Origin: Candidatus Poribacteria bacterium
GTDB taxonomy: Bacteria; Abyssobacteria; SURF-5
DNA length: 26,119 nt
Reading direction: 5' to 3'
Assembly (NCBI GenBank): GCA_016215705.1
Contig: JACRIR010000036.1
Location: 1-26,119 of the forward strand
Part shown: positions 7,983 to 24,401 of the stretch, piece by piece
Numbering within the stretch: position 1 is the first letter of the stretch
How the letters are laid out: every line of letters begins with the position of its first letter
Notes under the pieces: model-generated
Database searches by the model: none
Told to the model about the DNA's origin: nothing
The model's input: the letters and a program-made list of their open reading frames with translations, nothing else
Position numbers and translations under genes: made by a program

Positions 7983-8037
7983 ATAACGCTTTCAAAATAT
8001 AATGGGACGCAAGCAGCGCCTGTGAAACTCCTTCTTA

Positions 8038-8066
8038 CGGGGACACGATGCGGCATCGTGTCCCCG
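8038..8066. repeat. GGGGACAC-family palindrome (copy 2)
   Basis: Perfect 14-bp arms CGGGGACACGATGC and GCATCGTGTCCCCG around a single G. It sits between the acyl-CoA dehydrogenase stop and the ferredoxin start, inside a same-strand gene run, where it may attenuate or stabilise the message. Confidence 0.9.
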
Positions 8067-8090
8067 CAAAAAGGGAGATGTCTTTCATGA

Positions 8091-11375: not shown

Positions 11376-11448
11376 TGCCATATGCCTCCTCTTGAGCAAG
11401 CCTTGTTCCCTTTTGGGCACAACGTTCTTGTTGTTCACGCGCAGACCG

Positions 11449-11495
11449 GCGTTTATTCGGGGACACCATAGCGCATGGTGTCCCCGAATAAACGC
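11449..11495. repeat. GGGGACAC-family palindrome (copy 3)
   Basis: Perfect 21-bp inverted arms (11449-11469 and 11475-11495), core TTATTCGGGGACACCAT, loop AGCGC. It lies between the alcohol dehydrogenase stop and the larA-like start and would form a strong hairpin in a shared message. Confidence 0.93.
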
Positions 11496-11521
11496 GGAAT
11501 CCCTCGCAATGACGATTCCCG

Positions 11522-12963: not shown

Positions 12964-13047
12964 AGAACGCGGGTACATATGTCGCGGAACTTGTCATATG
13001 TGCTGTTGCTTCGTCAACTTTGTCTTGTCCGTTCCCGCAAGGACGCA

Positions 13048-13065
13048 GTCACGCCGAGGCGTGAC
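13048..13065. repeat. Palindrome GTCACGCC/GGCGTGAC
   Basis: Perfect 8-bp arms around GA, followed by GCCCCTGCAAAAGC. The tail resembles the CCCCTACAAAGG tail of the 15417 composite repeat, so it is probably a diverged member. Confidence 0.65.
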
Positions 13066-13235
13066 GCCCCTGCAAAAGCATGTGTGTATGCTTACAAACT
13101 CAAGCGTGACATGATACTATTGCCTCGGCAACCTTGTTTTTGTAGAGTCTCATAGGGCGCACTCCCACCGTGGCGGGGAACTCCTACAAGGATACGCGCC
13201 AAAACCCAAGAATACGCAAGGATGCGATTGTTACC

Positions 13236-14645
13236 ATGCGCTGTCTAGCTCGGCTACCGGTTTTGCTCCTTGGACTCCAGGTCTTTTTTGCGTGCGCGCA
13301 CTACCCCGCAAACAAGAGGGTTGAGAGCGTTGATATGGTCGCACAGCCGAGAGCGGCCAGTCCGGAGAGTTCGGATGATCTGTTGCTCATTCTGGCATTC
13401 TCCGGCGGAGGAACCAGGGCGGCCGCTCTTTCCTATGGAGTGCTCGAGGCGCTGGCACAAGCCAAGATTCCGGGTTCGGCATATGCCCTCGACGCTCACA
13501 ACGGCGAAAGCGAGCGCAGGCTGCTGGATGAGGTCGATATCATCTCGTCCGTGTCCGGCGGAAGTTTCACTGCGGCCTATTATGGACTGCACAAAGATCG
13601 CATATTCGAGGATTTCCCGCGCCGTTTCCTTTACCGCGACGTGAATCGGGGCCTCATCCGGCAGGCACTCTCGCCCATCAATGTGTTGCGACTGGCCAAT
13701 CCGGGTTTTGGGACGAGCGACCTGGCAGCGGAATACTACGACAGAATCCTTTTCGACGGGGCGACGTTTGGCGCGCTGCAAAAGCAGGATACCCCGACCC
13801 TTTTCATCCAGGCGACTGACATCGTCGATGGAATCTATTTTGGGTTCACTCCATACTATTTCTCGCTGCTCTGCTCCAATCTGGATGACTACCCTATCTC
13901 ACGCGCCGTGGCTGCTTCTGCGGCGTTCCCGGGACCATTCAACGCGATCACTCTCCGCAATTACGCAGGCGCGTGCGGGTTCGAGGAGGAGCCGTGGATG
14001 ATCGAGGCGCTTCAGAAGCGCGACACCACGAGCCGCCTATTTAACACGGCCAATCATCTGCACACCTATCTCGATCCGGAGAAGAAAGCCTTTGTCCACC
14101 TCGTGGATGGCGGTGTCGCCGACAACCTCGCTTTAAGGGGTCCCCTCGAGATGATCATGATTCGCGGCGGCATCAAAGGAGTATTCGGAGACATGCATGG
14201 CAGGAAGACTCGTCGGGTTGCTTTTATTATAATAAATGCCGAAAAGAAGCCTCAGACCGTTTATGGACTATCGAGCCAGGGGCCGGGGCCGCTTGGAATA
14301 ATAGGTATCACGTCGTCTGTGATGATCAGCAGTTACAACTATGAGACGTTGGAACTCCTGCGCAGCTACATAAGAGAGTGGTCGGATGAAAGCCGGCGTC
14401 TGAACGGCAACGCTCAAGCGATCGAGTTCTATGAAATCGAGGTGGGCTTCAATGCCCTGCCTACCGAAGAAGAACGTGCGCGCTTCTCGAGTATACCGAC
14501 GACTCTTAGTCTTCCGAGGGAAACCGTGGACGACTTGCGCGGAGTCGCCGGCAGAATTCTCTATGACTCGGAGGAGTTTCAAAGACTGCTGCACGACCTC
14601 GGCGGCGAAATCCCGGTCTCTCATTCCATGAACCCGTCCCGCTAA
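13236..14645 (+). CDS. Patatin-like phospholipase, predicted lipoprotein
   Basis: A 469-aa protein. The signal MRCLARLPVLLLGLQVFFAC ends in a lipobox-like FFAC (Cys20), predicting an exported lipid-anchored protein. The patatin core shows FSGGGTRAAALSYGVLEAL (oxyanion loop GGGTR, 57-61), the nucleophile elbow SVSGGS with Ser107 (a Ser-for-Gly variant common in this subgroup) and the catalytic Asp291 in DGGVADN. The Ser-Asp dyad predicts acyl-hydrolase/phospholipase A activity, probably at the periplasmic face or outer membrane. ATG 13236 is preferred because it starts the signal peptide; a GTG at 13170 gives an unlikely extension, although the ribosome-binding site for 13236 is weak (AAGGA about 13 nt away). 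It leads the same-strand run with the C39, TPR and small-protein genes. Confidence 0.88.
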   Translation: MRCLARLPVLLLGLQVFFACAHYPANKRVESVDMVAQPRAASPESSDDLLLILAFSGGGTRAAALSYGVLEALAQAKIPGSAYALDAHNGESERRLLDEVDIISSVSGGSFTAAYYGLHKDRIFEDFPRRFLYRDVNRGLIRQALSPINVLRLANPGFGTSDLAAEYYDRILFDGATFGALQKQDTPTLFIQATDIVDGIYFGFTPYYFSLLCSNLDDYPISRAVAASAAFPGPFNAITLRNYAGACGFEEEPWMIEALQKRDTTSRLFNTANHLHTYLDPEKKAFVHLVDGGVADNLALRGPLEMIMIRGGIKGVFGDMHGRKTRRVAFIIINAEKKPQTVYGLSSQGPGPLGIIGITSSVMISSYNYETLELLRSYIREWSDESRRLNGNAQAIEFYEIEVGFNALPTEEERARFSSIPTTLSLPRETVDDLRGVAGRILYDSEEFQRLLHDLGGEIPVSHSMNPSR

Positions 14646-14780
14646 CACATATTCCGCAGTCGGCGGCTATTGCAAACGGCACGGTCATAATGTATGCTTG
14701 TACAGGTCGTGGAAGGCACAGGCAATTGAGTCCAGCGTGTCGAGTTTCGGATTGGACCGGAGGAAAGGAAACAGAGTTTA

Positions 14781-15416
14781 ATGCGCGTGCGCGCATTGTG
14801 GATTCTTGCGGGTTTCCTGCTTATTGTGGCCGGATGCAGCGCTACAGGCTATCAAAGAATCGGCAACGGGCATGCCCACGAGCTATCCTGCGAGGACATT
14901 TCTTTATCGCCCGGAAAGGACCCTGCCTGCGGCCCTCAAGCCCTCGCGCAGATATGCAAATTCTGGGGAATCGAGGTGGATGAACAGGACCTGCTGAATC
15001 AGACTCTGGGCGATGAGAGCGACGGCTCACGGCTTGGAACCCTCCGGGAGTGGGCGCAGGGGCATGGGCTCGAGGCGCAACTCTATCACGGCTCGCCGCA
15101 GGACCTCGCCGAGAAAGTCGCCGCCGGGATGCCGGTGATTGCCGTTCTGGATGTCAATCGGTACCCTGAGCTTCCCAATCCGCTGGTCCGAAAGAACTTC
15201 TGGGGGCATGCCGTCGTGGTCGCCGGGTTCGATGATGAGTCCCGGCAAGTGATTCTGTGCGACAGCGGAAAAACTGCAAGAATGTCCTACGGCAGTTTCT
15301 TCAGAGATTGGAAAGCCGCTGAATGGGTGACCCTGCTGGTGTGGCCCGGCGACACTGCTTTGTCCACGGAGACACGGTTGGACCCCGAAGCCGCAAGCAG
15401 AGATTTGGCGCGATGA
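14781..15416 (+). CDS. C39-like cysteine peptidase lipoprotein (PA2778-like)
   Basis: A 211-aa protein with a lipoprotein signal ending LIVAGC (Cys19). The mature part is a papain-like C39 domain: PACGPQALAQICKFWG gives the catalytic Cys50, and FWGHAVVVAGFDDES followed by ILCDSG gives His143 and Asp161. C39 domains of ABC exporters cut double-glycine leaders; free lipoprotein versions such as the PA2778 family have no proven substrate. Length fits a stand-alone domain, whereas PA2778-type proteins, as I recall them, also carry TPR repeats, here encoded by the next gene. AGGAAAGGA precedes ATG. The stop codon TGA is the loop of a GGCGCGA-TGAA-TCGCGCC palindrome, so the C-terminus may have been set by repeat insertion. 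Confidence 0.85.
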   Translation: MRVRALWILAGFLLIVAGCSATGYQRIGNGHAHELSCEDISLSPGKDPACGPQALAQICKFWGIEVDEQDLLNQTLGDESDGSRLGTLREWAQGHGLEAQLYHGSPQDLAEKVAAGMPVIAVLDVNRYPELPNPLVRKNFWGHAVVVAGFDDESRQVILCDSGKTARMSYGSFFRDWKAAEWVTLLVWPGDTALSTETRLDPEAASRDLAR

Positions 15417-15472
15417 ATCGCGCCCCTACAAAGGTTTAGTGTATGTCCGGAGGGCCACAATTCGTTGCGCCC
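15407..15472. repeat. Composite GGGGCGCAAT-family repeat (copy B), overlapping the C39 stop codon
   Basis: Two palindromes in tandem: GGCGCGA-TGAA-TCGCGCC (15407-15424) and a decayed GGGCCACAATTCGTTGCGCCC (15452-15472). The part 15417-15472 aligns without gaps with 5031-5086. It contains the stop codon of the C39 gene (15414-15416). Confidence 0.8.
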
Positions 15473-15555
15473 TTGTATTCAGCCAATTTCTGCCAAGATG
15501 GCGGGCGGGAATCACCACAGGAATTCAAGAGGCTGGAGGTAAGCCACACAAAGGA

Positions 15556-16242
15556 ATGGAAGAAAGTAAAGTCTCTCGGAGAACCTGGCGGCCCTTGTGG
15601 CAGGGGTTACGCTTTGGCTGTGACTGTGCCGCACTATGTTTACTATTAATGACGGCGGCAGGTTGTGCCCGTGTTCCCTATAGAGTCGCGATTCCTGAAA
15701 GAGAAGGCGTTCAGCCTGCGGGCAAATCCGCAACAGCGGCAGATCATAATAAGGTGGGTGTAACTTATGAGTCAGCCGGCCAGTACGAGAAGGCAATCCG
15801 AGCGTACCGAAAATCTCTAGTCCTGGAACCGGAGAACCATGTTGCTCGTACAAACCTGGGAAATGTTCTTGGCAAACTATGCCATTTTGATAAGGCAGAA
15901 GAATGCTACCGCGATGTTCTGGCGAAAGACCCCGAAAACCTTGCGGCCATGAACAACCTGGCCTGGCTGCTTGTTTCCACCGGCGACACCCGGGAGTGCG
16001 AGGAAGGGATCAAGTTTGCCGGCAAATGTCTTTCGCTTGCTGAGAAGGCGGCCCCCGGCATACGTCCTTCTCTTCTGGACACGCTTGCGTGGGGCAATTA
16101 TCGGCTTCAGCGTCAATCCGAAGCCCTTCGGCACGCTCGGTTGGCCGCCGATTTGCTTGGGGAAGAAGAACTGAAAAATAACCCGTTGATTTGGGGGCAT
16201 TACCGTACAATTGTTGGGATTCAAGGCCGATGGGCGCAATGA
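15556..16242 (+). CDS. TPR-repeat lipoprotein
   Basis: A 228-aa protein. A 36-residue leader with a hydrophobic stretch ends LLLMTAAGC (Cys37), a lipobox, so export and lipidation are likely. About four TPR units follow (roughly 62-95, 96-129, 130-165 and 172-205), the clearest being YEKAIRAYRKSLVLEPEN and FDKAEECYRDVLAKDPEN. TPR arrays bind partner proteins; the partner may be the C39 lipoprotein encoded 139 nt upstream (inference). ATG 15556 is chosen because it gives a plausible signal; AAAGGA is adjacent and GGAGG is 15 nt away, so the start is only fairly sure. An upstream frame from 15439 runs through repeat DNA and is discarded. The TGA stop is in the centre of a CGCAA-TGA-ATTGCG palindrome. 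Confidence 0.83.
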   Translation: MEESKVSRRTWRPLWQGLRFGCDCAALCLLLMTAAGCARVPYRVAIPEREGVQPAGKSATAADHNKVGVTYESAGQYEKAIRAYRKSLVLEPENHVARTNLGNVLGKLCHFDKAEECYRDVLAKDPENLAAMNNLAWLLVSTGDTRECEEGIKFAGKCLSLAEKAAPGIRPSLLDTLAWGNYRLQRQSEALRHARLAADLLGEEELKNNPLIWGHYRTIVGIQGRWAQ

Positions 16243-16251
16243 ATTGCGTTC
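16232..16251. repeat. GGGGCGCAAT-family palindrome overlapping TPR stop codon
   Basis: CGCAAT-GA-ATTGCG with partly conserved GGG/TTCC flanks. The stop codon TGA (16240-16242) is at its centre, as in the C39 gene upstream. Confidence 0.75.
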
Positions 16252-16369
16252 CTATGGAGACGCATCAAGAAATGCGGACGTATTCTTGGACACTAACCCT
16301 GAACATGGAACCGTTTTTGCTAGGAGCAGCAGACCACGGCGGAGCGTGGTTAATCGAGAAAGTGGTACG

Positions 16370-16414
16370 CCTTAATTCGGGGACACGATGCAGCATCGTG
16401 TCCCCGAATTAAGG
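16370..16414. repeat. GGGGACAC-family palindrome (copy 4)
   Basis: Perfect 22-bp arms (16370-16391 and 16393-16414) around one A; core TTAATTCGGGGACACGATGC. Longest perfect palindrome of the family in the window. Confidence 0.93.
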
Positions 16415-16477
16415 GAACCATAGCTGGCTTCCCAGTCCTCATTTTCACGAATACGATGACGTATCCGCTCAACCTCC

Positions 16478-16506
16478 GTAGGGGCGACCCGTCGGGTCGC
16501 CTCTAC
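16478..16506. repeat. GTAGGGGCGACCC palindrome
   Basis: Arms GTAGGGGCGACCC (16478-16490) and GGGTCGCCTCTAC (16494-16506), one mismatch, spacer GTC. This is a palindrome type I know from intergenic DNA of many unrelated bacteria. Confidence 0.85.
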
Positions 16507-16552
16507 AAAATACGCTATAGGATTTAGGAAACTGACTGCTTGGGAGGTGATG

Positions 16553-16608
16553 TTGGCAACCACAAAACGGTTTTGGCAACCGGAAATCAACGAGGTTAGT
16601 CATATAAC
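16553..16608 (+). promoter_or_regulatory. Possible activator sites and -10 box before the first small gene
   Basis: TTGGCAACC occurs twice in direct orientation (16553-16561 and 16573-16581), 20 bp apart, about two helical turns. TATAAC (16603-16608) could be a -10 box with no good -35, so the nearer repeat would lie around -36. Suggestive only. Confidence 0.35.
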
Positions 16609-16632
16609 GGGCACAACTAAAGGAGGAAGAAG

Positions 16633-16917
16633 ATGCCTAAGAATTCCGTCGCCGCTATGTTGGCTTTGGTTATGCTTCTTACAGCCCTCGTGTCGCCGTG
16701 CATAGCTGCTCCAATCGCTTCGTCAACAGGGGCCGAGGAAGGCGGGAAGGTCGCAACTCAACCGACTGTCTCAAGTCCCTCGGCTACGCCTGCCGAAACA
16801 CAAGAAATGGATGAGACAGTTGTCGGCGAATTGGTTCAGGGAATCACAAATACTCAGCTTGTTGTAGGCGGTCTTGTTGTGATTCTTTTGGTGGCGGTAA
16901 TTGTGGCGGCATCCTGA
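16633..16917 (+). CDS. Small exported protein with C-terminal membrane helix, paralogue 1 (PA2779-like)
   Basis: A 94-aa protein with three parts: a signal peptide (residues 1 to about 25, ending CIAA), a Ser/Thr/Ala/Pro-rich linker with an acidic EMDETVVGE stretch (about 26-70), and a strongly hydrophobic C-terminal helix (VVGGLVVILLVAVIVAAS, 77-94). AGGAGGAAG just before ATG is a strong ribosome-binding site. The layout matches PA2779-type small proteins that neighbour PA2778-type C39 peptidases, although sequence similarity cannot be proven by eye. The next gene encodes a paralogue with the same layout. A Val-Gly-Gly precedes the helix core, but the paralogue lacks Gly-Gly, so a classical C39 double-glycine leader is not supported. 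Function unknown. Confidence 0.8.
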   Translation: MPKNSVAAMLALVMLLTALVSPCIAAPIASSTGAEEGGKVATQPTVSSPSATPAETQEMDETVVGELVQGITNTQLVVGGLVVILLVAVIVAAS

Positions 16918-17023
16918 TCGCGGGCGGATGATCCCGCGGCGCCATGTGATGTTTGCGAAAGAAACGGGATAAGGAACGAATAGGTTCACCCCACAGATAT
17001 GGGATTTTCGGGGGGAGTTGGGT

Positions 17024-17041
17024 TTCCCGCTTTCGCGGGAA
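17024..17041. repeat. TTCCCGC/GCGGGAA hairpin tag
   Basis: Arms TTCCCGC and GCGGGAA around TTTC, followed by TGACA. This is the common GGATTCCCGCTTTCGCGGGAATGACA-type intergenic tag, here between the two small-protein genes. Confidence 0.75.
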
Positions 17042-17125
17042 TGACAAGAAGAAGCGAGAATGACGAAAAGAAATGGAAATGACAAAGAGTACTGGAAAGG
17101 ATGAAAAGGAAAGGGGGATGCTCAA

Positions 17126-17401
17126 GTGAAACACAGAGTCCTGTCTTTAGCCATGATACTGATTATGCTGATCCCGACGTCGGCCATTTTCGCGGCCCCG
17201 CTGGTATCGCAGCCTGCAGAGACCAATAACAACCAGATGGAAAAGGGCGATGTGCAATCGCTTTCCGGGCCGGACACGCCGGGGCTCAGCCGGGATCAGC
17301 AGCAAATCGAGTCGCTGCAGGTCGGCGAGATAAGCGAGAACGCATTGTGGATAGGACTGGGAATCGTAGTCGTGCTGGGAATCGTGCTTGTCGCATCATG
17401 A
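17126..17401 (+). CDS. Small exported protein with C-terminal membrane helix, paralogue 2 (PA2779-like)
   Basis: A 91-aa protein with a signal peptide (MKHRVLSLAMILIMLIPTSA then IFAA), a polar linker rich in Gln/Asn/Glu (about 26-70) and a C-terminal hydrophobic helix ending GIVVVLGIVLVAS. The AAPxxSxxA after the signal and the VAS ending are shared with the product of the preceding gene, so the two look like diverged duplicates. The start is GTG at 17126, with GGGGG 8 nt upstream; an ATG at 17118 opens only a three-codon frame overlapping it. Probably sits in the inner membrane with the linker outside. Partner or substrate of the C39 lipoprotein is a reasonable guess, not shown. Confidence 0.78.
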   Translation: MKHRVLSLAMILIMLIPTSAIFAAPLVSQPAETNNNQMEKGDVQSLSGPDTPGLSRDQQQIESLQVGEISENALWIGLGIVVVLGIVLVAS

Positions 17402-17502
17402 TTCTCGAGGAAATAGTGACGGAACTTGATAAACTTCGGCTCGGCAGGGTCGGAATGATAGAGACCTGAATGAGCCATAATTAACACTAGAGGAGAAGGC
17501 AG

Positions 17503-18681
17503 ATGCATGACGTTTATGTCGTTGGGGCCGTGCGCACCCCTGTGGGACGTAGAAACGGCTATCTGAGGGAATGGAAAGCCCCCGAGTTATTGGGGGCGGT
17601 ATTGGACGAGGCGGTAAAGCGAATAGACCTCGACCCGGGTCTTGTGGAGGAAGTCATAACCGGCGCGGTGTACCAGGTCGGCGAGCAAGGCGCTACAATT
17701 GCCCGCACCGGCGTTCTTGCCTCGAAGTTTCCGGAGAGCGTGCCCGGAGTTTCCGTGAATCGGCAGTGCGGCAGCAGTCTCACTGCGCTCCAGCTCTGTT
17801 GCGGATTGATTGCGTCCAACACGATAGACGTTGCGATAGCGAGCGGAATCGAGTTGATGAGCAAATATCCGATCGGCTCAGACGTCGGCGGCACGCTTCC
17901 CGATGGTCGGCCCCAGGGAGACCCGTATGGAGAATATTACTTTGAGCGGGTCAAAGGAAAATTCTACAATCAGGCTCAGGCCGCGCAGGCGATTGCCGAA
18001 ACATGGGGCATCACCAAACAGATGTGCGATGAATTTGCCGTGGCAAGTCACAAGAAGGCTCACCGCGCCACGGTCAATGGGCACTTCAAGAATGAGATTA
18101 TGCCCACGAAAGGGCTCGACGGCGACGGCAAGGAAATAGTCCGCGACACCGATGAGACCGTTCGTCCGGACACTTGCATGGAGAAACTCGCGACTTTGAA
18201 ACCCGTTCTCGGAACCGATTGGATTACCGCAGGCATCTCCAGCCCGGTGACTGATGGCGCCTCGGCGGTGGTGCTCATGAGCGGGCAGAAAATGAAAGAA
18301 CTGAAGATGACGCCGCTGGCTCGAGTCGTGGCCAACGCAGTGGTCGGCTCGGACCCGATACTCATGCTGACGGGCCCGCTGGTAGTCACTCCGAAAGTGC
18401 TCAAGAAAGCCGGCATGAAGATGGGTGACATCGACGTCTTTGAAGTCAACGAAGCCTTTGCGCCGGTTCCTCTGGCCTGGGCCAAGGAGCTGAAAGCCTC
18501 AATGGAGAAACTGAACGTGAACGGCGGGGCCATGGCTCTCGGGCATCCGGTGGGCAACTCAGGTTGCAGACTGAGCATAACGGCAATAAACGAATTGATC
18601 CGAAGGAAGGCAAAGTACGCTCTCGTTACGTTGTGCACCGGCGTGGCAATGGCGCCGGCAACTATCTTCGAACGCTGCTGA
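17503..18681 (+). CDS. Thiolase (acetyl-CoA acetyltransferase family)
   Basis: A 392-aa thiolase, the same length as Zoogloea biosynthetic thiolase, with catalytic residues at the same numbers: Cys89 (NRQCGSS), His348 (GHPVGNSG) and Cys378 (LCTGVAMA). VNEAFA and NGGAMALGHP are family signatures. It condenses two acyl-CoAs or cleaves a 3-ketoacyl-CoA. The last motif is CTGVAMA instead of the usual CxGGGxG, so the pocket near the general base may be unusual. AGAGGAG lies about 8 nt before ATG. It is 101 nt after the second small-protein gene; whether it belongs to that unit is doubtful. It converges on the PEGA gene across a palindrome. Confidence 0.93.
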   Translation: MHDVYVVGAVRTPVGRRNGYLREWKAPELLGAVLDEAVKRIDLDPGLVEEVITGAVYQVGEQGATIARTGVLASKFPESVPGVSVNRQCGSSLTALQLCCGLIASNTIDVAIASGIELMSKYPIGSDVGGTLPDGRPQGDPYGEYYFERVKGKFYNQAQAAQAIAETWGITKQMCDEFAVASHKKAHRATVNGHFKNEIMPTKGLDGDGKEIVRDTDETVRPDTCMEKLATLKPVLGTDWITAGISSPVTDGASAVVLMSGQKMKELKMTPLARVVANAVVGSDPILMLTGPLVVTPKVLKKAGMKMGDIDVFEVNEAFAPVPLAWAKELKASMEKLNVNGGAMALGHPVGNSGCRLSITAINELIRRKAKYALVTLCTGVAMAPATIFERC

Positions 18682-18757: not shown

Positions 18758-18800
18758 AGAAAAATGGGGACACGATGCCGCATCGTGTCCCCATTTTTCT
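18758..18800. repeat. GGGGACAC-family palindrome (copy 5), terminator-like
   Basis: Perfect 21-bp arms (18758-18778 and 18780-18800) around one C, with A5 on one side and T5 on the other, so both directions give a GC-rich hairpin followed by a short U tract. It lies in the convergent gap between thiolase and PEGA genes and overlaps the last two bases of the PEGA stop codon. Confidence 0.92.
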
Positions 18801-24360: not shown

Positions 24361-24401
24361 GAAAATCGGGGACACGATGCGACATCGTGTCCCCGATTTT
24401 C
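24361..24401. repeat. GGGGACAC-family palindrome (copy 7), convergent junction
   Basis: Perfect 19-bp arms GAAAATCGGGGACACGATG and complement around CGA. A-rich and T-rich ends make it terminator-like in both directions. Confidence 0.92.

Follow-up and report, generated by a model that had tools for sequence, protein, structure and literature searches.

The window, a stretch of DNA of 26,119 nucleotides, carries two adjacent forward-strand genes: a C39-like cysteine peptidase gene (14781..15416) and a TPR lipoprotein gene (15556..16242), representing the N-terminal and C-terminal halves of the PA2778 family, respectively. The peptidase matches PF13529 (E 1.5e-10) and positions 4-155 of the PA2778-family profile NF033920 (E 1.2e-14, 54.3 bits). 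The second protein matches TPR families and, within NF033920, positions 153-250 (E 1.3e-8, 34.6 bits). By these consecutive matches, the two proteins are equivalent to the two parts of what is, in some bacteria, a single fused protein. The locus thus shares with PA2778-family cysteine peptidases the order of C39 followed by TPR, but here the two parts are separate genes and both scores fall below the curated cut-off of 150.

As listed, the TPR open reading frame begins at a GTG at 15439, a position that lies inside a repeat dimer, and the gene therefore probably starts at the ATG at 15556, which would be followed by a signal peptide with the lipobox LMTAAGC. The GTG of this longest frame is likely to mislead annotation of the start. 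Downstream of the pair, two small proteins (16633-16917 and 17126-17401), neither of which matched any family, each possess a signal peptide and a C-terminal hydrophobic segment. Homologous loci likewise have small membrane proteins alongside C39.

Both genes take their stop codons from the loop of a palindromic repeat. The peptidase gene ends TTG GCG CGA TGA within TGGCGCGATGAATCGCGCCCCTACA (15406-15430, forward strand), a G-type copy with one mismatch to the 25-nt family consensus, and its stop at 15414-15416 is the loop TGA. The TPR gene ends TGG GCG CAA TGA within GGGCGCAATGAATTGCGTTCCTATG (16232-16256, forward strand), a degenerate A-type copy with four mismatches, and its stop at 16240-16242 is again the loop TGA. 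The initial annotation had placed both stops inside palindromes of one family, and the mismatch counts bear this out. It had also described the terminal LAR and WAQ as repeat-encoded, which holds for the AR and AQ residues but not for the leucine and tryptophan, whose codons straddle the repeat edge.

The copy at the end of the peptidase gene forms the left half of a facing dimer that has decayed (its alignment scores 120.5, shuffles at most 70). Its partner on the reverse strand (15448..15472) has five mismatches and has lost the loop TGA (ACGAAT). Read directly from the sequence, the spacing of this dimer is 47 bp, compared with a genome mode of 49. The copy at the end of the TPR gene is single and aligns to the element with a score of 72 against a shuffle maximum of 60.5. 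Similarity between the DNA upstream of the first copy and the flank of the element was not significant, and an Rfam search of 13000-18000 gave no match.

The repeat belongs to a GTAG-tagged REP family with approximately 350 copies in the genome. Its oriented unit is GGGCGCRATGAATYGCGCCCCTACA; the opposite strand begins TGTAGGGGCGC, with the GTAG tag at one end. With up to three mismatches, GGGGCGNNATNNATNNCGCCCC occurs five times in the window (0.24 expected) and at 347 places genome-wide, against 25 for a control, while the stricter pattern GGGCGCRATGAATYGCGCCC with one mismatch gives 252 genome-wide matches against none for its control. Across 1.47 Mb of the genome, the 25-nt consensus with up to six mismatches yields 174 matches, compared with one for a reversed-sequence control. 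The loop reads ATGAAT, or its complement ATTCAT, in 83 of the 92 copies in a first sample of 850 kb, so the consensus of the family itself includes the TGA, which is no peculiarity of the two copies at these stops.

G-type and A-type units are about equally represented (35 and 34 copies), and 37 facing pairs of the two types occur among 113 copies, most often spaced 49 bp apart. GTAG-tagged REPs typically lie for the most part between convergent and unidirectional genes. Here, by a home-made gene caller, 62 copies lie between unidirectional genes, 18 between divergent genes, and 10 between convergent genes. A RAYT gene flanked by the repeat is a common but non-universal feature of REP families and is not treated here as defining. 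Three genes for Y1_Tnp (tyrosine-transposase) proteins are present in the genome, and no copy with up to seven mismatches was found in the 1.9-3.3 kb loci examined around them; the assembly is 92% complete, and the cognate RAYT gene may be missing from it.

Open reading frames that run into the hairpin use its TGA about as often as chance predicts. Among frames of at least 100 codons entering from the TGA side, the hairpin TGA is the stop in 6 of 19 in the same genome, 12 of 39 in other organisms, and 5 of 7 in G002, a genome of the same family that carries copies of the repeat; this last count is small and comes from frames that were not tested as real genes. Pooled, 23 of 65 (35%) stop there against 33% expected by frame (p = 0.79), in a test that is approximate because many of these frames are not proven genes.

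Pfam-supported genes show several outcomes. A repeat TGA serves as the stop codon for a methylpurine-DNA glycosylase (L238), an inositol monophosphatase (L275), and a P-type ATPase (L264), whereas an OpcA-like gene (L258) reads through the repeat. In the same genome as the window, a glutamine amidotransferase gene (L028, 811-1770) passes through a copy in a frame other than that of the TGA and terminates in the spacer of the dimer, thereby gaining a repeat-encoded tail (RRGRNQTDRIGRDESRPCGIS). Several long frames of this genome that stop at a repeat TGA (in L036, L033, and elsewhere) were not accepted as genes, being antisense to called genes or having a non-coding score. Two further frames, L241 34-4218 and L233 45-677, contain the repeat-like motifs VGAQFIAP and VGAPFMAP and then end at another repeat TGA; neither frame has a Pfam match.

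The two stops are best explained by old, decaying REP copies with a built-in TGA that happened to lie in frame at gene ends, a reading to which we assign a probability of about 0.88. Each copy of the ATGAAT-loop family carries a TGA on one strand. If a copy lands over the 3′ end of a coding sequence, suitably oriented and in one frame of three, its loop TGA would become the stop codon, and the protein would gain a two-residue tail, A-R or A-Q. Selection would tolerate such tails because the domain is already complete. That both copies arrived by insertion is inferred, as the searches found no repeat-free orthologue near enough to reveal an empty site. The striking anatomical coincidence at this locus would then be a consequence of the stop codon present in the repeat consensus. 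Counting against this explanation, it is an uncommon coincidence for two adjacent genes to share the arrangement, and the peptidase and TPR genes are the only secure cases in the sampled 1.47 Mb.

Stop codons supplied by REPs have already been described, and the loop TGA is a small variation on a known event. The termini of GTAG-tagged REPs often give a TAG stop to flanking frames (Di Nocera et al. 2013, PMC3733652). Like those elements, the present family consists of short, GTAG-ended palindromes in many copies, with frequent facing dimers and mostly intergenic positions. It differs in that the stop is the TGA of the loop, on the strand opposite the tag, and not the tag's own TAG, and in that it is not concentrated at 3′ ends in the sampled genome.

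If the copies inserted, they could in principle have shortened the proteins, as the initial annotation had proposed as one option. For the peptidase, the comparison points the other way: 34 residues follow the invariant tryptophan in the window, against 13-23 in seven homologues with repeat-free loci, although at 20-36% identity an end at the same residue can be compared only roughly. Because this tail is longer than in the repeat-free homologues, which include split forms, the C39 domain is complete and the protein was not truncated. For the TPR protein, loss of a further TPR unit from an ancestral C-terminus is unlikely but deserves some weight, since 85 residues follow the conserved aspartate in one homologue (G365), compared with 53 in the window. 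Against this, two other homologues have 54 and 55 (G245 and G372) and two more only 11 (G125 and G025), so the length of this region is inherently variable.

A functional role for the hairpins at the stops, in which they would be retained as regulators of termination, ribosome stalling, or the stability of mRNA 3′ ends, is very unlikely. Such a role would find a parallel in E. coli, where REPs no more than 15 nt from a stop are reported to be capable of lowering translation (PMC12306157), and the consensus dimer of the present family does fold very stably, as one long hairpin (-54.6 kcal/mol, z = -9.05). However, the two copies at these stops are degenerate, and neither folds more stably than its shuffles (z = -1.25 and -1.02). 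In E. coli the palindrome also lies near the stop codon, but the hairpin is downstream of the stop, whereas here the stop sits inside the hairpin, in the loop, so a terminating ribosome would be expected to open the 5′ arm.

There is slim likelihood that the loop TGA has itself been selected as a built-in stop by which insertions close to the ends of genes do no harm, which would render the family a terminator-safe mobile repeat. If this were the case, it would explain both the near-invariant ATGAAT loop among copies in the genome and the recurrence of the repeat in several phyla.

The initial annotation had also raised a preference of the repeat for stop codons, which might reflect machinery that recognizes a sequence or RNA structure at gene ends. 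Two adjacent genes with stops in the repeat, together with the frequent location of REPs near 3′ ends in other species (PMC3733652), would fit such a preference. The relation of copies to stops was tabulated in 101 stretches totalling 1.47 Mb of the genome, with 113 copies and 1059 genes called by a hexamer model; the first stretches were picked because they contained copies, the others mainly by contig number, and the TPR gene, missed by the caller, was added by hand before the count. Within 60 nt of a called stop there are 13 copies against 15.4 expected for random intergenic points, and within 15 nt there are 2 against 3.9, these two being the peptidase and TPR copies themselves, at a distance of about zero. 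Copies thus lie no closer to stops than intergenic points placed at random, with no excess at stop codons, and frame use is random. This count largely refutes a preference for stops, which now has very little chance of being correct.

It is similarly hard to credit that a fused ancestral PA2778-type protein was divided into the two genes when the repeat inserted. The consecutive NF033920 matches, the position of the dimer exactly between the genes, and the existence of fused forms elsewhere speak for such an event, but the same split occurs in five other lineages (G025, G125, G365, G245, and G372) whose loci lack the repeat (best match, 9-11 mismatches), the TPR protein has a lipoprotein signal of its own at its start both in the window and in those lineages, and a signal peptide downstream of a 70-bp repeat cannot come from that repeat. 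In the five lineages, the adjacent C39 and TPR genes are usually preceded by a small membrane protein. Their split arrangement in repeat-free loci shows that the separation of the two genes occurs independently of the repeat. No C39 homologue was found in two genomes of the same family, and a single-protein search of the genome contigs with C39 found no relative.

Outside this genome, the 25-bp core is present, among the matches listed, in records labelled Gallionella, Armatimonadetes, Polyangiaceae, Chloroflexi, Nitrospirae, and others. The occurrence of an exact core across several phyla (L196-L275) suggests horizontal spread, convergence, or binning contamination; metagenome bins can be contaminated. 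In genomes carrying the family, proteins ending in RAR or RAQ, and reading frames that start or end in a repeat, should be annotated with care.

A second palindromic family, GGGGACACGATGC / GCATCGTGTCCCC, with variable outer arms, is represented by about five copies in the window (8030-8074, 11447-11497, 16370-16414, 18758-18800, and 24361-24401). Sequence resembling this second family also adjoins copies of the first elsewhere in the genome.
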